Positions 54,499 to 64,000 are shown, counted from the first letter of the stretch. The stretch is DNA of 64,000 nt from Acidobacteriota bacterium (GCA_029263395.1 JAJCXO010000067.1:1-64000), one strand, 5' to 3'. Translations and numbers: made by a program. The notes: generated from the sequence alone by a model not told the origin.

Positions 54499-54728
54499 TC
54501 TAGTTCAGGGTCTGCCAGGCTAGGCCCGCCCAGGCACCCCGGCAAATGTTGCAGGACCGGGACTCATCTAGTAGCTTGTGGCGGACGGACGGATCCAGAC
54601 GATGTCGCCGTCCATTGATCTACAGGATCTTCGATCGTACAGGGTTCGAGTCGATCTCTATACCTAGCCCACTCCTCAATGACTACAAAGATCTTTCTTC
54701 CCTTTGGGTTGTTAACGAGGACCCGCAA

Positions 54729-55802
54729 TTGACCGGCTTCGCCGCCGTCGATCTCTTCTGCGGAGTCGGCGGAATGACTTACGGGTTTCGGCAGGCAGGC
54801 ATCCCAGTAATGGTTGGAGTCGATATCGACGCCAGCTGCCGGTTTCCAATCGAGGCCAACAACACGGGGACGCTCTTCGTGGAAAAGAGTGTGAGTGACC
54901 TGGCTGTTGATGCAGTCTCCGCTTGGTATCCCAAAGACGTGGTGCGAGTTCTCATTGGCTGCGCGCCGTGTCAGCCATTCTCCAAGTACGCGGTTCGAAA
55001 CGGGCCGGATGAACGATGGCGGCTCCTCTACGATTTTTTGCGGCTAGTACGCGGTGTTCGCCCAGACATCGTTAGTATGGAAAACGTACCCCAGCTGAAG
55101 CTTCAAAAACATCCCGCATACTTAGATTTCGTTGCTGGACTAGAGGCCGAAGGGTACTGGGTGTCGGACGCTATCGTGCACTGCGGTGACTATGGAGTGC
55201 CTCAGACCCGGCGACGCCTTGTCTTAATCGCGGGGGCGGGTCGATCCATTGATCTTATTTCCCCCTCCCACCATCGGCACAGGACAGTGCGCGATGCCAT
55301 CGGCGAGCTTCCGCCTATCGGGCCCGGTGGCGAGCCACCGGCCAACGATCCGCTTCACATTGCGCCCCGCTTGAGCGCCACGAACCTAGAACGCATTCGA
55401 ACAACACCAGAAGGTGGCAACTGGCACGATTGGCCTGAGAAACTTCGCTTGGCATGCCATCTACGATCATCAGGACGCTACTACGGGAGCGTCTATGGGC
55501 GTATGGCATGGAACAAACCGGGCCCGACGGTTACCACGCAATGTTACGGTTACGGCAATGGTCGCTTCGGCCATCCTGAACAAGATCGAGCGATCAGCCT
55601 TCGCGAAGCTGCGTTGCTACAGACCTTTCCTCAATCTTACCAATTTGTTTCACCTGGCCAGCGACCACGCTTCAGGCATGTGGGCCGGCATATCGGCAAT
55701 GCCGTACCAGTAGAACTTGGCAGAGCCATTGCGCTGAGTATCAAACGATCGTACGCCGTTCGAAATAGCGGCCGTGGAGATACTCTTCAAAGCACCGGAT
55801 GA
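54729..55802 (+). CDS. C5 cytosine-specific DNA methyltransferase
   Basis: 357 residues from TTG 54729 (GAGG at 54717-54720); an ATG at 54546 would add 61 residues unlike the family. Motif I is DLFCGVGGMTYGF, motif IV GCAPCQPFS with nucleophile C81, motif VI ENVPQL (118-123), motif VIII QTRRRLVLI and motif X GNAVPVELGRA, all intact, so it should methylate cytosine-5 in a target given by the region between VIII and IX. Its 3' end overlaps by 62 bp the end of the convergent HEPN gene. Composition is AT-richer than the neighbourhood, consistent with transfer. Confidence 0.92.
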   Translation: MTGFAAVDLFCGVGGMTYGFRQAGIPVMVGVDIDASCRFPIEANNTGTLFVEKSVSDLAVDAVSAWYPKDVVRVLIGCAPCQPFSKYAVRNGPDERWRLLYDFLRLVRGVRPDIVSMENVPQLKLQKHPAYLDFVAGLEAEGYWVSDAIVHCGDYGVPQTRRRLVLIAGAGRSIDLISPSHHRHRTVRDAIGELPPIGPGGEPPANDPLHIAPRLSATNLERIRTTPEGGNWHDWPEKLRLACHLRSSGRYYGSVYGRMAWNKPGPTVTTQCYGYGNGRFGHPEQDRAISLREAALLQTFPQSYQFVSPGQRPRFRHVGRHIGNAVPVELGRAIALSIKRSYAVRNSGRGDTLQSTG

Positions 55803-56463
55803 CTTCACGAAGGTAGCGCACAACTACCGCGGTCCAGATGCGCAAGTCGCGGACTGATACGGTCCGACCGCAGTCTCCGAAAGATGCCTCGCCATGGGCC
55901 AGTGCATTACGCCTCTGGCGAATCAGCTTCAAGGGTCCCATATCGTCAACAACGTGGCGCTTGATAGCTTCTCTAAGCGAGGGGTGGATCTTCAGTTCGA
56001 TGCCAAAGCGCTTGACTGTCTTCTCGATCTGAGAATCGTCAAGGTTTCCACCCCCCCTCATAGATGGATCGAAATCGATGGTTTTTCGGCCGATCAAATG
56101 CTCAGAGATCTCTAAGAGCGTCTCGATTCTTTTCTCCTGATTCAGAGGCTGCGCCGTTTGTCCTTTTTCTTGGAGCCAGGACTTCTTCCACTCCTCCGAG
56201 AGATCCTCGTAAACGACGCCGGTCTCACAAATCTCCTCTGCGATGCGGGACAGACAACCCGTGACGGTTGACTCCACCAGATTGTAGAGATGGAGGAATA
56301 CGCTGGCCTTGAGAACGTGATGAGTCGTAGTGTCGAGGCTCAAGCGACTGTTGCCAGAGCGGGAGACGAAATCAGCCCCATGGTTCTCGACAAAACGCAG
56401 CGTATCCAAGTACTGCAGGATCTCCTGGCTGCGCTCGCGGAAGCCTCTTCGGATCTCGATCAT
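55741..56463 (-). CDS. MAE_28990/MAE_18760-type HEPN protein
   Basis: 240 residues, mostly helical, with the HEPN signature RNALAH (R185 to H190, Rx4-6H) preceded by LKLIRQ and followed by GEASFGD. The N-terminal wording (YLDTLRF, KASVFLHLYNLVESTVTGCL) fits the MAE_28990/MAE_18760 HEPN families, predicted RNases in defence and toxin settings. It starts four bases after the stop of the DUF262 gene, so they share a message. The first strand of evidence for a defence role is this context with a DNA methyltransferase. Confidence 0.8.
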   Translation of the reverse strand: MIEIRRGFRERSQEILQYLDTLRFVENHGADFVSRSGNSRLSLDTTTHHVLKASVFLHLYNLVESTVTGCLSRIAEEICETGVVYEDLSEEWKKSWLQEKGQTAQPLNQEKRIETLLEISEHLIGRKTIDFDPSMRGGGNLDDSQIEKTVKRFGIELKIHPSLREAIKRHVVDDMGPLKLIRQRRNALAHGEASFGDCGRTVSVRDLRIWTAVVVRYLREVIRCFEEYLHGRYFERRTIV

Positions 56464-56467
56464 CCGG

Positions 56468-57598
56468 TCAATTCTCTGTTGGTGGCAGGATACTATTAGC
56501 CCGACCTCTATCGCCTAACACCATGTACTGGACATATTCCGTCCGATTCAGAATGCGACTTCGGACGTTTGCCGCACTCGAAGTCGTGAGCAAGAAGAAC
56601 TCCTCGGAGGATAGCCAGTCATTGGGATCGATAGCTGGTTTATGCTCGATGATTGTGGAATCTTCTTTAGCGGCCAACCAAATTCCCACAGCGATGGCAT
56701 CGAATCGTACGCGGGGTGTCGTCCGGGAATTCGGCTTCTTGCGAAAGCCGTTCGGCAAGTGTTGCTCTACGAATCTCATGACTGCTTGGAAGCGCTCTCG
56801 GTAAGCGTCTGGTCTATAGGCGTTCTCAGCTGTGTGTCCATTAGCTTTCAAGAGCCATTTCTTTAGGAACTCGCTTATTCTGTCCCGGTACCCCTCGAGA
56901 CCATCACCAAACGCAAAAAATCGTGTGATGAGTTCCTCAGCTTCCCGCTTATTTCTCGCAGCCTCAGTCAAGGGGCACAACCGCAAGAATTGTTCGTCCG
57001 AGGCGAGCTCGTCAATAAGATCGGTCATCGGACCCATGATTGATCCTCGCCGCGTCTCGGCAGGCTCCGCGATTAAGGACCCGGTATTGACGCGGTCAAA
57101 CAAGTCTCGTCGATCCGACTCCTCCGCTTTCTGAGATAAAACAACCGACCTGATCGTGCGATTGCGTAACCGCCTCTGCTGTGCTTTGGACAGCCTTGAA
57201 TAAGTAAACCCGTCAAGCGCCTCGAGTCGCTCCAAGCCCACTAAGGTCAATTCGTTGCAAAGAAACGCCTTGCATGTGCTCAATCGTTGCATACCATCTA
57301 CCACTTCAAGACGCCCGTCTTCAATATCTGCGAAAAAGAGGAAAGGTATTGGCAGGCCGATCAAGAGGGACTCGATGAACCGTGACTGTCGACGCTCATC
57401 CCAATTAAAGCGTCTTTGGTAGAACGGAATGAAGATGTCGTCTTCCTCGCCGCCCATGCCGAACTTCTGTACCAACAGCTCGATCGTAAATTCCTTCGTG
57501 TCGTAATCCAGGATTCGCTGGTTTTCCTCAAGCTGTTCCATCGCCAACTTCGTCAGCTCTTCATCGGGTCCCAAGCTGTCCGACCCTTCGTGTGCCAT
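56468..57598 (-). CDS. DUF262 (ParB-like/GmrS-type) protein
   Basis: 376 residues from ATG 57598 with AAGGAG upstream. The DUF262 marks are IPFYQRRFNWDERRQSRFIE (57-76), LLIGLPIPFLFF, VVDGMQRLSTCKAF (the usual DGQQR here DGMQR, 101-105) and LFDRVNTGS. DUF262 is the nucleotide-hydrolysing ParB-like domain of GmrSD-type restriction and related defence proteins; the DUF1524 HNH nuclease that often follows is absent here. The HEPN partner could supply the nuclease instead. Likely operon DUF262-HEPN. Confidence 0.87.
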   Translation of the reverse strand: MAHEGSDSLGPDEELTKLAMEQLEENQRILDYDTKEFTIELLVQKFGMGGEEDDIFIPFYQRRFNWDERRQSRFIESLLIGLPIPFLFFADIEDGRLEVVDGMQRLSTCKAFLCNELTLVGLERLEALDGFTYSRLSKAQQRRLRNRTIRSVVLSQKAEESDRRDLFDRVNTGSLIAEPAETRRGSIMGPMTDLIDELASDEQFLRLCPLTEAARNKREAEELITRFFAFGDGLEGYRDRISEFLKKWLLKANGHTAENAYRPDAYRERFQAVMRFVEQHLPNGFRKKPNSRTTPRVRFDAIAVGIWLAAKEDSTIIEHKPAIDPNDWLSSEEFFLLTTSSAANVRSRILNRTEYVQYMVLGDRGRANSILPPTEN

Positions 57599-57755: not shown

Positions 57756-59441
57756 CTACCAAGGCCTTCTGATGTCACTCGTCCCGCTATCTTTGCCTGA
57801 AGCCTTATCCCGCCGTGCCTGCCAGACGGTCCCCTGATAGCTCTTCCCGAGTCGCTCGACCACAACCCCTCGTACGCTCCGGCCAGCATACCGACGTAAG
57901 ATCATGCCGAGAGGCTGTGCCCCCGGTGGACGATCCCCGCGCCACCGTGGATCCAACGCCACCAGCCCCGACCGTAACCGACGATATCGACCGCTAGACG
58001 CGGTTGCTGCCAGCCGATCGAGGATCTGGCGGGCGCTGGCCGAACCACCGAGATCGGCGAGCAACGCTTCGAGCCCAAGCACAAGATCGGCGACGGCGGT
58101 TGCCCGCGGGACGGTCGACGGGTTCTCGACCCCGCCGCCATCGGACGCCGCCGCCTCGCCGGCCGCTGGCTCCACCGGTCGCCAGGCCCGCAACAGCACC
58201 CCATCGGCGTCATACATGCGGACCTCGGCCCCCGCCAAGCAGGTTACGACCGGGTCGACGCTGGAAGTCTCCGGCGACGATGAGGGATGGCTGCCGGGAC
58301 GCTCGGCCCCATCACCTTCGTCGACGGTTCGACCCAGATCCAACGGACTGGCGATCTTGCCACGATGCGGACAGTGGACACAGGCCGCCCCATCGAGGTG
58401 TTGGGCGATGGTGGCGCAGGTTGGATGGGGTGCCCCCAACGCCTGATCGAGCGCGTCGTCGGTGAGGGCCCGGGTGGTACCGGGGTGACCTTGGGAATTC
58501 CAATGCGCCAAGGCGCGGCCATCCGCCTCCGGCACCGCCGATCGACCCACCACGCCGAGCACAGCGTGCCACACCTTGGCCGGCAGCACCGCCCGCCGCT
58601 CGTAACCCTGCCGCAACCAGCCACAGCCTTCGAATATTGCCTCGAAGTTGGCGGGTGGGGCCGCCACCCTGGTGCGGGCGGTGATTGCCCGCCTGGGTAA
58701 CCGCAGCGGTGCCGTGGGTGGTGCCGGCAGCTGCGCAAAATCCTCAGGATGGTACCGCCGGTCCTCCCCCGGCAGTGGGAAACGGTCGACTGTGACCAAC
58801 ACCGGAGGTCGGCGCTGGCGGCCCGCCCCAAACTGATGATCGAGGGTGCCCGGCAGCCGCAGGTGCTGTGCCAAATCAACCTCCGGATCCAACTGCCAGC
58901 CACGATCCGCCGCCGCTGTCACCACCGCGGAACGCAACCGACTCAGAACCTCCGTTGCCGTCGCCCGATCGTCCGCCGTCGTCAGCTCCCACGGTTGACG
59001 CAACAGCCAGTAGACATCACAACCGCTGGCATGGGACACCACCACCGACGGCGGCAACGGCACCGCCGACAACAACCCCAACGCCGCCACCCGATCTGGT
59101 GGCAAATCCGCTTCCCCCGCCGACGCCACCGTCAGCTCCACCCACAGCGCCGGCAACGCCAACACCGCCGAGGCGGCTCCCGGCACGGTGGTCAATTTCA
59201 CCCGTGCCCGTCGGCTGCGCGCCAAGGCCAACGCGTCTTTGGATTCCTGGATCGCCGGTGCCAGGAACACATCGTTGGTCTTGCGTCCTCGGAATCCGCG
59301 CCGCGCAATCGTCTCTAATGTGTGGACCCAGGCGTACCGCCAAACACCGGCGCGGGTCGAGCGCAGACCCAGCACCCAGCGCCCCATTGCAGGGATTTGT
59401 GGATACATCGTTTGTAAAAATTCCATCGTTGACACTGCCAT
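57756..59441 (-). CDS. Primase-polymerase-like replication protein of a mobile element
   Basis: 561 residues from ATG 59441 (AAGGAG upstream). Residues ~85-225 have the look of an AEP/RepB-like prim-pol domain: ALWVELTVASAGEADLPPD, PPSVVVSHASGCDVYWLLRQ and DLAQHLRLPGTLDHQF. A Cys-rich stretch CATIAQHLDGAACVHCPHRG (~365-385) may bind zinc. The C-terminal ~130 residues contain a winged-helix-like part (LGLEALLADLGGSASARQIL). Such proteins start replication on plasmids and integrated elements. It is the last gene of a four-gene minus-strand cassette. No helicase domain was seen, and the assignment rests on pattern memory. Confidence 0.55.
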   Translation of the reverse strand: MAVSTMEFLQTMYPQIPAMGRWVLGLRSTRAGVWRYAWVHTLETIARRGFRGRKTNDVFLAPAIQESKDALALARSRRARVKLTTVPGAASAVLALPALWVELTVASAGEADLPPDRVAALGLLSAVPLPPSVVVSHASGCDVYWLLRQPWELTTADDRATATEVLSRLRSAVVTAAADRGWQLDPEVDLAQHLRLPGTLDHQFGAGRQRRPPVLVTVDRFPLPGEDRRYHPEDFAQLPAPPTAPLRLPRRAITARTRVAAPPANFEAIFEGCGWLRQGYERRAVLPAKVWHAVLGVVGRSAVPEADGRALAHWNSQGHPGTTRALTDDALDQALGAPHPTCATIAQHLDGAACVHCPHRGKIASPLDLGRTVDEGDGAERPGSHPSSSPETSSVDPVVTCLAGAEVRMYDADGVLLRAWRPVEPAAGEAAASDGGGVENPSTVPRATAVADLVLGLEALLADLGGSASARQILDRLAATASSGRYRRLRSGLVALDPRWRGDRPPGAQPLGMILRRYAGRSVRGVVVERLGKSYQGTVWQARRDKASGKDSGTSDIRRPW

Positions 59442-59515
59442 CACAAGCTCCTTTCCGGTCCGGATCTAAAACGAACATAGGGACAGAAAACCCCTCGATT
59501 CCTCCCACAAAACAA

Positions 59516-59543
59516 GGGCGGTCGACGCCATCGCCGACCGCCC
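59516..59543 (-). terminator. Intrinsic terminator inside the cassette (minus strand)
   Basis: GGGCGGTCG (59516-59524) and CGACCGCCC (59535-59543) form a 9-bp GC stem with a 10-base loop. Read on the minus strand it is followed by TTGTTTTGT, a T-rich tract. It would reduce transcription from the Gly/Ser-tail gene into the primase gene. A second hairpin lies just before it. Confidence 0.7.
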
Positions 59544-59549
59544 CCCTCA

Positions 59550-59570
59550 GGCGCGGCCTGGAGCCGCGCC
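59550..59570. other. GC hairpin
   Basis: GGCGCGGC (59550-59557) and GCCGCGCC (59563-59570) form a perfect 8-bp stem with a 5-base loop, 18 bp after the stop of the gene at 59588 and next to the terminator. Confidence 0.7.
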
Positions 59571-59587
59571 TTCAACAACCGGTCAGA

Positions 59588-60631
59588 TCAGGCATTGGTG
59601 GCTGTCTGATCACCCTGCCGACCGTCGTTCGGTTCGGCGCCACCTCCTCCCTCACCCGAGTTGCCACCGTCCCCAGAGGATCCGTCGCCCGAAGTGCCAT
59701 CGTCTCCCGAGGTGCTATCGCCCCCAGTGGTGCCACCGTCCCCCGAGGAACCACCGTCCCCCGTGGAACCACCGTCTCCCGAGTTGCCACCGTCTCCCGA
59801 CGTACCATCGTCCCCCGAGGTGCCGTTTCCCGTGGTGCTGCCGTTCCCCGTGGTGCTGCCCTGCCCGGCACCACGACCGTCCCCGGAGGTGGTATCAGTG
59901 GGTGAGCTCGACGTGCGATGCGACGTCGGCCGGATACGATCCGACGCCTCCTCCATGCCGGCGAGGTCGTACAACGCCTCCAGAAAGCGGAACCCTTGAT
60001 AGGTCAGCCGGCCGAGACCATCCAACGACCGACGCTTCCTCACCAACGCGTCGACCGACACGCTGCGCTCCAGTGAGAGCGCCGTGAGGCTTTCACCGAG
60101 GTCTTCGAGATGCGGCTTCAGGCCCCGCGCCAGCGCATCCCGATCGATCGCGACGCCAGGCAGCTTGGCCTCTTGCGCCGCCAGTCTCGGGTCGACCAGC
60201 CAGGCCATCACCCGGGTGCCGACCTGAAGGACCGTCGTCGGATCGGTGGGGATCCGTTGGTCGACGAGCCCAAACAGCTGCACATTGCTACCCAAGCCGT
60301 AGTAGCCCTCGTGCAACGTGCGCGCCGCCAACAAGATCTCGCGGACCTTCTCCGTGCTCCGATCGCGCTGAGTCCGGATTCTGTGGTCGAAGACCAGCTC
60401 ACGCATGTGCAGGTCGTCGGCTGTCACCGTCTGGTTGCGCAGCAGTTCGAGCTCGAGGCCGAGCAACACCTGCACCTGGGTGATGGTGAGATCGGTTGTG
60501 CCCTCGGGTAAAACGTCGGCAAAACGTTCCAGCAAGCCGTCCAGCACTTGCGGATGGCGTGACGTCTCGAGCGCCGCTCCAGCGACCAACAGACATTGTT
60601 TTCGTTGGTCAATAACCATTTTTGATGCCAT
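59588..60631 (-). CDS. Cassette protein with Gly/Ser/Asp-repeat tail (paralogue 1)
   Basis: 347 residues from ATG 60631 (AAGGAG upstream). Residues 1-240 are helical and hydrophilic (LGLELELLRNQTVTADDLHM, LSLERSVSVDALVRKRRSL), without a family I know. Residues ~250-330 are an acidic repeat of the SGDGG/TSGDG kind, as in flexible linkers. The core aligns by eye with the protein at 61411-62235 (GVAIDRDALARGLKPHLEDL against GVALDHELLARSLDDPLADL), so the two are probably divergent paralogues. A binding or scaffold role in the element is possible. Confidence 0.65.
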   Translation of the reverse strand: MASKMVIDQRKQCLLVAGAALETSRHPQVLDGLLERFADVLPEGTTDLTITQVQVLLGLELELLRNQTVTADDLHMRELVFDHRIRTQRDRSTEKVREILLAARTLHEGYYGLGSNVQLFGLVDQRIPTDPTTVLQVGTRVMAWLVDPRLAAQEAKLPGVAIDRDALARGLKPHLEDLGESLTALSLERSVSVDALVRKRRSLDGLGRLTYQGFRFLEALYDLAGMEEASDRIRPTSHRTSSSPTDTTSGDGRGAGQGSTTGNGSTTGNGTSGDDGTSGDGGNSGDGGSTGDGGSSGDGGTTGGDSTSGDDGTSGDGSSGDGGNSGEGGGGAEPNDGRQGDQTATNA

Positions 60632-60702
60632 GGGATACTCCTTGAAATGTTGTTTGAAAGGTTTTAGAAACCACTGTCGCAGACGATGCCAAAGGCACAG
60701 CG

Positions 60703-60996
60703 TCAGTCCATCCACTGACCGATCATCAATTCGTCGATCCGCTCCGCCAAATCAAAATTGGCTTCCCTCAGACCGTCCACTACACCGTCACCGATGCGGA
60801 TCGTGACCCGATCGTCATCGACCAAAATCATCGGCGGCTCACCCATCTTCCAGCCGACCTGCGACACTCGGTTGGCAAACTCCATCGCCTCCAGGTGGTC
60901 CATGAACCGACACTGGCGTTTGATATAACGCTGCCCACGAGTGAGCTTCCATTCCGGGACCAGCGTCATACGGAATTGGGTTCGTTCAGCTTTCAT
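60703..60996 (-). CDS. DCoH/pterin-carbinolamine-dehydratase-like small protein
   Basis: 97 residues from ATG 60996 with AAGGAGAGG upstream. The pattern WKLTRGQRYIKRQCRFMDHL, EAMEFANRVSQVGWKMGEPP, DDDRVTIRIGDGVVDGLREA and NFDLAERIDEL follows the fold of pterin-4a-carbinolamine dehydratase. The catalytic His pair (HHP and TH positions) is replaced by GEPP and GDG, so it is probably not an active dehydratase. DCoH-type proteins also serve as dimerisation factors. Gap of 71 bp to the next gene in the cassette. Confidence 0.55.
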   Translation of the reverse strand: MKAERTQFRMTLVPEWKLTRGQRYIKRQCRFMDHLEAMEFANRVSQVGWKMGEPPMILVDDDRVTIRIGDGVVDGLREANFDLAERIDELMIGQWMD

Positions 60997-61410
60997 AACC
61001 TCTCCTTTTGCCGGCTGACCAACGCAGCCTCCGGCACCATGGACGACGCAACTCCATGCCACGCCTTCCGTTTTTGGGTTGCCGGGCACAGCCCGGCCGT
61101 TGTGATCGGCACCACCGCACACCGCGGTGGGCTCGATCAGGTTTCAGTGGTCTTGTCGCAGCCTCTGTCTTGTTGCAGCCTCGGCCGACCTCGGCCGGGT
61201 GGGTTATCCCTGCTGCCTGGGGATTGGGTTCAAGAACGCCTCGAGAGGTCGGTCGGTCTTTTGGGCTGTGCAGCAGCTCCGGAAACTAGCCGGATCTCTT
61301 GCCAAGCGCCTAAAATCTCCAGATGCCACCGGATACGAGAGGCCAACGGCTGCGAAGCTCAAACACGCTCGCTGCTTGCTCGCTCCACAAGACCTCCCTC
61401 CCCGAGGGGG
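60997..61410. other. Intergenic region within the cassette
   Basis: About 410 bp between the DCoH-like gene and the first cassette gene. Forward frames run through it but have no start site. A C-rich/G-rich inverted stretch (CCCTCCCCGAGGGGG, about 61395-61410) lies at the stop of the gene at 61411. No promoter could be fixed. Confidence 0.45.
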
Positions 61411-62235
61411 TTAGGGGGTGAGGGGTCGGCGCCGCCCGGACGACCGACGGGAGCCGGTGCGTCGAGATCGTCGACGGCGGGTATCCACCGGACTAGCCGC
61501 AGATGCGGGAGTCGACGGCGGATCGTCAGCCTCGGTTGGAGGCGCTGGATAGTGTTCGTGACGCGTCAACTCGCGCACCAGCCGTAGGAACAGCTTCGCC
61601 AAGCCGAGCTGTTGCTCGGTCCGACGCATCAATTCCTGACGTTCGACCAGCGATGACGACGCCCCCGCCCGCGCTCGCGGCAGGCCCTCGAGCGCGGCGG
61701 CAAGATCAGCCAACGGATCGTCGAGAGACCGCGCCAGCAGCTCGTGATCCAGCGCCACGCCGGCCACCCGCGCCGCCTCGCCAACATAACCCTCCGCTAA
61801 ACCAGCCTGCACCCGATGGCCAAACTGAACCTGCGCCGCCAGCGTCTTGGGCCAAGCTTCACCGCCGAACACCATTTTCTCTCCGCAGGGATCGACAGCC
61901 CGCACCAAGTCTCGGACGCACAACAAACTCTGGCGCAGCGCCTCGGCTCGCCGATCACGCTCCACCCTGGCCTGATTGATCGCTTGCTGGTCGACGACGT
62001 GCTGCGCATCCGCGGCGGCCAACTCGTGTTGAGCCGCGGCGAGCTGCCGTGCCAGGCCCGTCGGCGAGCTCAGCGTGACCAAAACTTGTTGGACGCGGCG
62101 TCCCCGCTCCCCCGCCAGCTCACGTCCGAGTACCCTCGACACTTGCTGGACCTCTCGCCGTCGCGCCGCCACCGTCTTCAATGGGGCCACCCTTTTCAAC
62201 TGCTGCGTACTTGAACTTTTTGCTCGAGATGCCAT
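61411..62235 (-). CDS. Cassette protein with basic tail (paralogue 2)
   Basis: 274 residues from ATG 62235 (GAAGGAG upstream), first gene of the cassette. Mostly helical, with a coiled-coil-like N-terminal half (LARQLAAAQHELAAADAQHV, RVERDRRAEALRQSLLCVRD) and a basic, Arg/Ser/Pro-rich C-terminus. The region GVALDHELLARSLDDPLADL, with the flanking helices, resembles the protein encoded at 59588-60631; tails differ (basic here, acidic there). No known family. It could be a nucleic-acid-binding partner of the replication protein. Confidence 0.6.
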   Translation of the reverse strand: MASRAKSSSTQQLKRVAPLKTVAARRREVQQVSRVLGRELAGERGRRVQQVLVTLSSPTGLARQLAAAQHELAAADAQHVVDQQAINQARVERDRRAEALRQSLLCVRDLVRAVDPCGEKMVFGGEAWPKTLAAQVQFGHRVQAGLAEGYVGEAARVAGVALDHELLARSLDDPLADLAAALEGLPRARAGASSSLVERQELMRRTEQQLGLAKLFLRLVRELTRHEHYPAPPTEADDPPSTPASAASPVDTRRRRSRRTGSRRSSGRRRPLTP

Positions 62236-62408
62236 GTTCGTCTCCTTCAGAAAGTGAGGTTCCGTTCCGCTCGGTCAACACAGCAACATCGTAAAAGCCA
62301 GATCAAACGAGTTCCAACACCCCCTTAATTTCGTGGAATCACTCCTTTGGAAAGATAACTTGCCTACACAAAGACTCCAGATCCCGCAATCACCCAGATC
62401 ACCCCGCA

Positions 62409-62429
62409 ATTCGCCCAAATCGGTCGAAT
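62409..62429. repeat. 21-bp imperfect palindrome (third copy)
   Basis: ATTCGCCCAAATCGGTCGAA plus a final T. It reads nearly the same on both strands and matches the form ATTCGYCCRAWTYGGRCGAA found at the end of the dispersed repeats at 46670-46690 and 54469-54489. Confidence 0.75.
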
Positions 62430-62472
62430 CCGGCCATATTCTCGGATAAAAGAAATTTCCGATTTTTCCAAG

Positions 62473-62493
62473 ATTCGTCCAAATCGGGAGAAT
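62473..62493. repeat. 21-bp imperfect palindrome (fourth copy)
   Basis: ATTCGTCCAAATCGGGAGAA plus a final T, 64 bp right of the third copy. The two could bind a dimeric protein upstream of the cassette operon, or be remains of REP-like DNA. Confidence 0.75.
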
Positions 62494-62825
62494 CAGACTG
62501 TGTTTTGGGCAAAAATCCCAGTCCGCAGAGCCCACCCAGCCAGGCCGACAGCCCAGCCAGTGGATTGCTTCACCCCTCGGATTAGTCGCTAACGTCGATC
62601 CAGGCGACGGGCGTCGAGGGTATTGGTGCCCATCCACGACCCGTCATGGAGGAGCAGGCGATGTCCCTTTTCGACGGCTCAGCGAGTGCTAGATCTCAGG
62701 CGCGCTCAACTCGAGGGCCGCGCATGGCACACTTCGGAATCTTCCAGGCTGGGCCTATGATCGAGCCAAGTGGCTAAGGTCTGCGACCACCACAAGCCGG
62801 AGCAGCCGCCGGGTCGCTCGAACAC

Positions 62826-64000
62826 TCACTCGACTTGGAGTTTGGCGTGGTTCGGGTTCGGTACACTCTTGGCCAAGCTCGCCGCAACGTGATCCAGCAG
62901 CTCTTCGTTGACCTCACCGCTGAGGCCACCTTCGACCAGCTGGAGCAAAGCCCCTTCCGCCAGCTTGTTGCCCTTGAACTGCTTGATCAGCGAAGCCATC
63001 TGCTTGGCTAAGCTGATCGCCGCCGGCCGTTTACCCTGCGCCAGCAACGAACGCATCAGATCGAGGCTCACCAGCACCACATCTAGCGGATCATCACAGG
63101 TGGTGAATAGCCGCAGGGCCTCCAACAGGTGCGGCTCTGCTTCTGCATACTCCCGCCGATCCACCGCCAGCATGCCTTGCAGCCAGAACAACTTGCCGAG
63201 CACAGCTCCGCCTTGTTGACCGGCAGAAGCGACCGCATCCTGTAGGTATGCCTCTGCCTTATTGAGCTGGCCTAGGTGACGCGAAGCCACCGCGATGCCG
63301 TGGTATGCAGCCAGCCGCCATCGACACATGCCCTCGTCGGTGAGCGGCAGGGTGTCCAAGGCTCGCTCGAAAACCAGCTGCGCCCGCCGATAGCTCCCTT
63401 TCTGAACGAACATATTGCCGCGGTCCACTAGCACCTTGCTGACATCGTGCTCCAGTGCGAGATCCGAATAGATGATCTGCGCCTTCTGCAGCAGTTCGAG
63501 CGCCAGGTCATATTCGCAGTGGTCCTGCAGGACATAAGCCCCCCGCAAAAGCAAAGCCGCCCGCGACGCCTCCAGCTCATGCCGCCGAGCCAGCTCCAAC
63601 CCGAGCCCAATCGCCCGCGCCGCTGGCGTAAACTCACCCAGCAACCGTTTCGCCGAGGCGTACACCCCCAAAGCCAAACATTGCAGCTCGAGCCGTTCGC
63701 GCTGATCCGCCACCACCAGCTCCACAATCTCAGTCGCCACCGCCTCCGCGATCCACGCCGCCGTTTTCGGCCGCTCATACCGCAGCCGATCCAGATAGGC
63801 CAGGTATTGCTGCATGAACTCGAGCGTCTGGTACTTCTGCGTACAGCGCAACCGCTTGCGTTGATCCGAGCGCGACGACCGGGTGAGATCCTCCAACCGC
63901 GCTTTGCGCGGCGGCACCTTCGATCCGATCAACGGTGTGCTGTGCTCCAACTTCCAGGTAGCCTTCGCCAGCGCCTCGAGTGCCGGCTGCTCCGCCGCCT
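62826..64000 (-). CDS. TPR-repeat protein, 5' end outside window
   Basis: The frame stays open to the right edge, and codons before the TTG at 63950 read as ordinary protein (EQPALEALAKATWK), so the start lies beyond the window. The visible ~390 residues are TPR helices (LGVYASAKRLLGEFTPAARA, GSYRRAQLVFERALDTLPLT, LNKAEAYLQDAVASAGQQGG, EYAEAEPHLLEALRLF). TPR proteins of this shape in Acidobacteria are commonly C-terminal parts of regulators, but no enzymatic or DNA-binding domain is seen here. Function unknown. Confidence 0.8.
   Translation of the reverse strand, partial: AAEQPALEALAKATWKLEHSTPLIGSKVPPRKARLEDLTRSSRSDQRKRLRCTQKYQTLEFMQQYLAYLDRLRYERPKTAAWIAEAVATEIVELVVADQRERLELQCLALGVYASAKRLLGEFTPAARAIGLGLELARRHELEASRAALLLRGAYVLQDHCEYDLALELLQKAQIIYSDLALEHDVSKVLVDRGNMFVQKGSYRRAQLVFERALDTLPLTDEGMCRWRLAAYHGIAVASRHLGQLNKAEAYLQDAVASAGQQGGAVLGKLFWLQGMLAVDRREYAEAEPHLLEALRLFTTCDDPLDVVLVSLDLMRSLLAQGKRPAAISLAKQMASLIKQFKGNKLAEGALLQLVEGGLSGEVNEELLDHVAASLAKSVPNPNHAKLQVE

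Follow-up and report, generated by a model that had tools for sequence, protein, structure and literature searches.

The locus analyzed here is most readily compared with the primase-polymerases of integrated mobile elements that have the archaeo-eukaryotic primase (AEP) fold, such as PrimPol-PV1 and the All3500-like proteins (sections consulted of the AEP survey, PMC5862659) and the PrimPol of cyanophage S-2L (PMC8065100). Three motifs are defined for AEP proteins, hhhDhD/E (motif I), sxH (motif II) and hD/E (motif III). Some families have Q, Y, R or K in place of the motif II His, and an acidic residue at this position is absent from the family variants described in the same sections (PMC5862659). 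In S-2L PrimPol, motif I reads E-x-D, and Glu is also permitted as its second residue (PMC8065100). The large protein of our locus is predicted to share with these enzymes the AEP fold, PriCT-like helices and a C-terminal winged helix. It differs from them in that it has no helicase, carries E-x-T at motif I and Asp at motif II, and lies in no recognizable element. Its fixed partners, a DCoH-like protein and two proteins here called A and B, were not found mentioned in the sections of the AEP survey consulted (PMC5862659).

The CCPol-MP-Cch2 operon of SCCmec is similar in layout, being a short operon in which a small partner gene lies beside a priming enzyme, with repeats nearby (PMC7581432). 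However, CCPol is an A-family polymerase, unrelated in fold to an AEP; its helicase, Cch2, is present and active (PMC7581432), unlike the helicase-less cassette described here; and MP is likened here to our small protein by gene position. That small protein matches pterin-4a-carbinolamine dehydratase/DCoH (PF01329; 2ebb) in fold and over its full length in sequence, but lacks HHP, begins with MK[A/P]ERTQ and is encoded in an operon with A.

A six-gene cassette at three loci

The window, i.e. the whole 64,000-nucleotide stretch analyzed, comprises the first 64,000 bases of contig C67 (156,686 bp), in a genome of 10.7 Mb and 291 contigs. Ordinary chromosomal genes surround the locus within this contig. 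The genes are as follows.

57756..59441, minus strand: PrimPol-derived protein, 561 aa (alternative start, GTG, at 59444)
59588..60631, minus strand: A protein, 347 aa
60703..60996, minus strand: DCoH-like protein, 97 aa
61411..62235, minus strand: B protein, 274 aa
62826..64244 of contig C67, minus strand: HTH/TPR regulator, 472 aa, of which 62826..64000, the TPR part, lies inside the window
64406-65020 of contig C67, beyond the window edge: divergent gene, about 200 aa

An earlier note, made from the sequence by itself, had described the first four of these as a minus-strand unit in which each gene has a good ribosome binding site. All four ORFs exist, and an AGGAG-type site can be read in the sequence before each of them. 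The extent of the unit was drawn too narrowly, as the regulator and the divergent gene accompany these ORFs wherever we find them, at three loci in all. The same note called two of the products DCoH-like and primase-like, which is right as regards fold, and took the other two for paralogues with oppositely charged tails, which the comparisons below bear out.

The gene order (divergent gene, HTH/TPR regulator, B, DCoH-like, A, PrimPol) is found in two Acidobacteriota species: at the window locus and, on searching for the cassette elsewhere as the note had proposed, on contigs C832 and C60 of G001, a genus relative. The divergent gene as predicted in C832 is shorter. Amino acid identities of the G001 cassettes to the window are 56–63% for the regulator, 35–42% for B, 52–73% for the DCoH-like protein, 56–58% for A and 63–65% for PrimPol. 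The main ORFs are uninterrupted at all three loci, and dN/dS among the three cassettes is 0.21–0.49 for the DCoH-like protein, 0.32–0.40 for A and 0.40–0.54 for B, rough values given that dS is about 1. Neighboring genes differ past the divergent gene and, where visible, past PrimPol; contig C832 ends near PrimPol, so flanks on that side are compared for the other two loci. This is a conserved cassette built around a viral-type primase in a bacterial chromosome.

Searches of plasmids and phages yielded distant primases only. Among PLSDB plasmids there was no cassette and there were two weak matches, both to distant Bacillaceae primases; IMG/VR likewise held no cassette, with one weak match. 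The window genome contains 21 tyrosine-integrase and 3 resolvase matches. None lies on C67 or on C10, C221 and C274, three contigs of the same genome with related operons, and a tRNA search of the window and of C67:53000-92000 found none. In two other genomes, G002 and G010, relatives of PrimPol or of the helicase lie alongside an integrase and, in G010, also a terminase, which makes it likely that the primase came from a mobile element.

The PrimPol-derived protein

Domains and motifs of the PrimPol-derived protein are given below; motif assignments are from the alignment.

Residues 1-239: predicted AEP fold
Residues about 260-347: PriCT-like helices
Residues 445-545 (C-terminal): winged-helix-like domain
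59130..59138, minus strand: motif I, E102-L-T104 replacing D-x-D/E
59016..59018, minus strand: motif II, Asp142 replacing His (the four short-clade members described below all have Asp)
58887..58889, minus strand: motif III, Asp185, retained (short clade: D or E)

PHROG primase profiles match the protein (DNA polymerase/primase, 1.2e-9). Its structure model, of only moderate confidence (pLDDT 67), aligns with S-2L PrimPol (6zp9) at a VIA-align Z of 13.3 over 171 residues (2.9 A) and with RepB' at a Z of about 10 (3h20, 10.2); on this model, the large cassette protein has an AEP fold. Searching PDB sequences with PrimPol profiles gave no AEP match; it is the model that ties the protein to solved AEP structures. 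Helices of the PriCT-like region span 249-347 in the model, with 3h20 aligned up to residue 339; Pfam returned no PriCT match.

Five relatives are encoded in the same genome. Two long ones, at C10:86610 and C274:63313, have D-L-D at motif I, the motif II His and a Walker A sequence (GTGKS, GAGKS). C221 is likewise long but degenerate at both sites; the short one at C10:38131 stands by itself; and C12 is distant. Own-genome operons related to the cassette include ones that keep an apparently intact primase-helicase. The P-loop helicase region matches DUF927 in one relative and DUF3987 in C12. Compared with the C10b and C274 copies, the window PrimPol has no helicase domain with Walker A, and a low-complexity linker occupies its place. 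Both ends of the long relatives have a counterpart in the window protein, so the helicase region is the missing part.

In the tree, four short PrimPols form one clade (100/100) nested inside the helicase-bearing relatives; C221 and C89 adjoin it, and the intact primase-helicases branch outside. Motifs I/II/III in this clade are E-T/D/D (window), E-E/D/E (C832), R-E/D/E (C60) and E-E/D/D (C10a). Pairwise dN/dS of PrimPol inside the clade is 0.24–0.28, again approximate with dS near 1 or above. Because the loss is common to all members, purifying selection acted after the helicase and motif residues were lost. By alignment and tree, the short clade branches among primase-helicases that look intact; it shed the helicase domain and changed motifs I and II, and its members went on to diverge under purifying selection. 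A broken ortholog is present at G001:C919.

By its motifs, the window PrimPol is probably catalytically inactive. We say probably, not certainly, because S-2L PrimPol itself carries Glu at the first position of motif I. Residual activity is possible given that the motif changes are partly conservative, that motif III is kept, and that the motif II His is missing in some of the AEP families covered in the sections consulted (PMC5862659).

Partner proteins and the noncoding region

The A and B proteins are homologous to each other (BLASTP E 2e-10, 31% identity across 140 aa; 4e-10 in a genome search), and the segment by which the earlier note had aligned them does align, with GVAIDRDALARGL at A159 and GVALDHELLARSL at B159. 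A is modeled (pLDDT 90) as an all-alpha core with two helices of about 60 residues, followed from about residue 237 by a disordered, acidic Gly/Ser/Asp tail of net charge −14. B ends in a basic Arg/Ser/Pro tail that begins at residue 227, with a net charge of +6. The opposition recurs in the two homologous cassettes: net charges are −14, −10 and −17 for A, and +6 in all three for B. The profile searches that the note had proposed for the pair came back empty, with no family in Pfam, PHROGs, NCBIfam, PADLOC or PDB sequences and only weak single-member matches, the best at 0.0015. Fold searches with A gave generic long-helical-bundle matches; the best Foldseek E was 0.18, and the VIA Z of 9.4 is typical of helical bundles.

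A-family profile matches number 35 in the window genome and 41 in G001 (some of them fragments). One or two each were found in 5 of 57 other relatives, and phylum-wide in 3 of 396 genomes, one of these being the window genome itself. Most members are lone genes, and an upstream element is common to a sub-clade of these. A genes from PrimPol operons cluster in part, in a tree from a short search that left some forks open. The family of A and B, unnamed and all-helical, has about 35–41 copies per genome in the genus and is nearly absent elsewhere; the cassette thereby exposes a family largely confined to one bacterial genus, on which a search of open-access papers returned nothing.

The DCoH-like protein matches Pfam Pterin_4a (5.6e-13) and 2ebb (1.7e-10). 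The active-site HHP is EPP in the window copy and is missing from every operon copy aligned, while canonical DCoH copies with HHP are encoded elsewhere in the same genomes. The protein keeps the pterin dehydratase fold without the dehydratase active site. Open-access papers yielded no link between DCoH and primases.

Its N-terminus carries a short motif.

60976..60996, minus strand: N-terminal motif MKAERTQ of the DCoH-like protein (alignment)

In nine of nine genus proteins aligned, the first seven residues are invariant apart from the A/P position (MK[A/P]ERTQ), whereas the remainder has widely diverged. In the C274 operon the motif sits on a short peptide without the DCoH domain. DCoH-like proteins of family f7 (G012, G020) have LKPERIQ within a longer conserved segment, and HTH and/or TPR-type genes, sometimes with A, lie near their genes. 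We considered whether the motif marks neighbors of A genes and rejected this, because f7 DCoH-like proteins carry it without A; it marks the DCoH-like family. Among neighborhood proteins of the first set of loci (238,179 residues), the pattern [KR]xER[TIVL]Q was limited to proteins bearing MK[A/P]ERTQ; in a later set, this loose pattern also occurred in one unrelated 670-aa protein. The motif, K[A/P]ER[T/I]Q in short, is a testable putative binding site.

RRNPP-type regulators are peptide-sensing HTH-TPR proteins. The gene upstream of B, which lies at the same place in both other cassettes, resembles them in its matched TPR repeats and in an N-terminal stretch of HTH-like appearance. It differs from them in that Pfam returned no HTH match for the window copy and no signal peptide gene was identified. 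Three noncoding features accompany the operon.

62236..62825, minus strand: noncoding region between the regulator and B, 590 bp
62409-62451 and 62473-62515: direct repeat pair in this region, spaced 64 bp
59514..59545, minus strand: GC hairpin of 14 pairs in the A-primase gap, with a T-rich tail after it

The regulator-B region is about 530–590 bp long across the three cassettes and contains an AT-rich dip (27–35% GC over 60 bp). Its mean column identity of 71% gave an impression of strong conservation that we reject, as pairwise identities are 53–62%, compared with 46–54% at fourfold sites. Identity being barely above that of fourfold sites, the main notable feature of the region is the repeat spacing, which is 64, 64 and 65 bp in the three cassettes. 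The pair is a possible operator pair or origin-like site. A promoter scan found no sigma-70 site. Hairpins similar to that between A and the primase gene were seen by eye in the corresponding gap of other operons; in a scan, such sites were no commoner in this region than in shuffles.

Possible roles of the cassette

We favor, at about an even chance of being right, a reading in which the cassette is a derived copy of a mobile-element primase-helicase operon that the host has retained, its gene order linking it with a module of the host lineage, and encodes what is probably a non-catalytic DNA-binding complex. PrimPol would no longer prime but would still bind DNA, using its AEP/PriCT surface and the winged helix at its C-terminus. 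It may form one complex with the DCoH-like adaptor and with A and B, whose tails are acidic and basic, and the HTH/TPR protein would control the operon from the 590-bp repeat-bearing region. Our guess at the most likely job is interference: the non-catalytic primase complex would silence mobile elements that depend on PrimPol by occupying their origin or the proteins that partner with it. Apparently intact primase-helicases are present in the same genome. A purely regulatory host role is the nearest alternative. Counting against the favored reading are the analogy with helicase-less AEP-PriCT-HTH replication proteins, RepE/RepS and PrimHYQ, in the consulted part of the survey (PMC5862659), the possible residual activity of PrimPol, the moderate quality of its model, and the different flanks of the three loci, which might also mean that the cassette moves.

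If the primase is indeed non-catalytic, the cassette clearly exemplifies a replication enzyme from a mobile element that selection has kept despite the loss of its catalysis and helicase, and the intact relatives in the same genome allow direct comparison with the window protein. More speculatively, and on a reading that we think unlikely, the non-catalytic primase fold, the non-catalytic DCoH-like adaptor bearing MK[A/P]ERTQ and members of the large helical family with acidic or basic tails may form a chromosomal system whose complexes are interchangeable and hold PrimPol-dependent mobile elements under control or block them.

DCoH-like and A genes also occur together without PrimPol (C187, C331, G012, G020). 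Such pairs, the 35–41 A genes per genome, mostly lone, and the upstream element of the lone-gene sub-clade would fit a host regulatory or structural nucleoprotein complex unrelated to mobile elements, in which a host module, the A family, took on PrimPol as its platform for binding DNA. We think this unlikely, as no regulated target is apparent and near-confinement to one genus would be unusual for a core host function.

The earlier note had seen in the genes the replication core of an integrated plasmid or satellite. For the window copy this reading is not supported, given the lost helicase, the altered motifs I and II, and the lack of integrase or resolvase on C67, C10, C221 and C274. A working core, integrated or extrachromosomal, would have an AEP-PriCT-winged-helix initiator that lacks a helicase and uses the host's, or one from another copy in trans, and the repeat region as origin. 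The architecture is like that of the RepE/RepS and PrimHYQ initiators (PMC5862659, same sections), integrase lies beside relatives in G002 and G010, the AT-rich region has repeats at a conserved spacing of 64–65 bp, and the different flanks of the three loci could also stem from cassette mobility. However, the motif I Asp pair and motif II His are replaced, neither integrase, resolvase nor tRNA was found nearby in the contigs and stretches searched, the cassette is on no plasmid or viral contig (PLSDB, IMG/VR), and the locus sits among ordinary chromosomal genes in a 156-kb contig. On balance, we hold such a core to be quite unlikely.

Purifying selection on PrimPol would also be expected of a re-specialized AEP enzyme, using Glu/Asp ligands in place of D-x-D/His to catalyze a different metal-dependent reaction, with nucleotides or nucleic acid as substrate. 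Consistent with this, Asp142 does not vary within the short clade, motif III is acidic and motif I is E-x-E in two of four members. But motif I varies inside the clade (E-T, R-E), unlike a constrained active site, and an acidic motif II residue is not among the AEP variants in the sections consulted (PMC5862659), making this reading improbable. Finally, a decaying, functionless remnant of a primase operon, which the loss of the helicase and motif residues, the lone PrimPol at C10:38131 and the broken G001 ortholog might suggest, is very improbable given that the main ORFs run uninterrupted at three loci and that dN/dS since the loss is 0.2–0.5.

Elements upstream of A genes and primase-helicase operons

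The element TTGACCGACCGGTCAGT lies ~200 bp 5′ of five lone genes encoding A, the all-helical protein family represented in the cassette.

Sites of TTGACCGACCGGTCAGT 5′ of lone A genes
C66:7145, source genome (G000)
C156:60702, source genome
C263:115618, source genome
C64:35423, source genome
L133:7663

When up to one mismatch is allowed, the entire source genome contains four sites, all of them (4/4) upstream of A genes. These sequence matches suggest a candidate operator or promoter element common to a sub-clade of A genes. In each of the two genus members (L034, L128), a lone A gene also adjoins the operon for cytochrome oxidase, and hence some lone copies occupy conserved positions.

A palindrome-like element, GAGTATAAAT...ATTTATACTC, is common to the noncoding leaders of two operons, namely C10b, the apparently intact primase-helicase operon of the source genome (L027:11258-12000), and its C919 counterpart in the genus relative G001 (L126:13313-13806). 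The C919 primase-helicase ortholog (L126:8634-11521) is split into three frames, a break that may reflect a pseudogene or an assembly error.

Other PrimPol and helicase relatives

A short PrimPol gene of the source genome (C10:38131; L026:8039-9880) stands alone, with neither A nor a DCoH-like gene alongside; by eye, it has type IV pilus-like genes on one side and a giant NRPS-like gene on the other. PrimPol or helicase relatives also occur in element-like clusters (L119, L120, L121) and at L030. Integrase-like genes are present in L119-L121, with a terminase and a ParB-like gene (the latter called by eye) in L119. L030 contains both DUF3987 and PriCT_1.

Genes adjoining the cassette and the f7 family

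Three further genes adjoin the cassette.

Genes adjoining the cassette (window coordinates)
54546-55802, plus strand, C5-cytosine methylase
55741-56463, minus strand, HEPN MAE_28990-type protein
56468-57598, minus strand, DUF262/GmrSD_N protein (PADLOC NsnA match, 4e-57)

Together (54546-57598), they look like a defence module distinct from the cassette.

In the DCoH-like family f7, genes carrying LKPERIQ, the counterpart of MK[A/P]ERTQ, have a recurrent partner gene of ~130 aa (L161, L162, L163, L164, L165). HTH or TPR-type genes lie near these f7 genes, and A is mostly absent. The f7 loci are tied to the window cassette through the DCoH-like protein and the motif.
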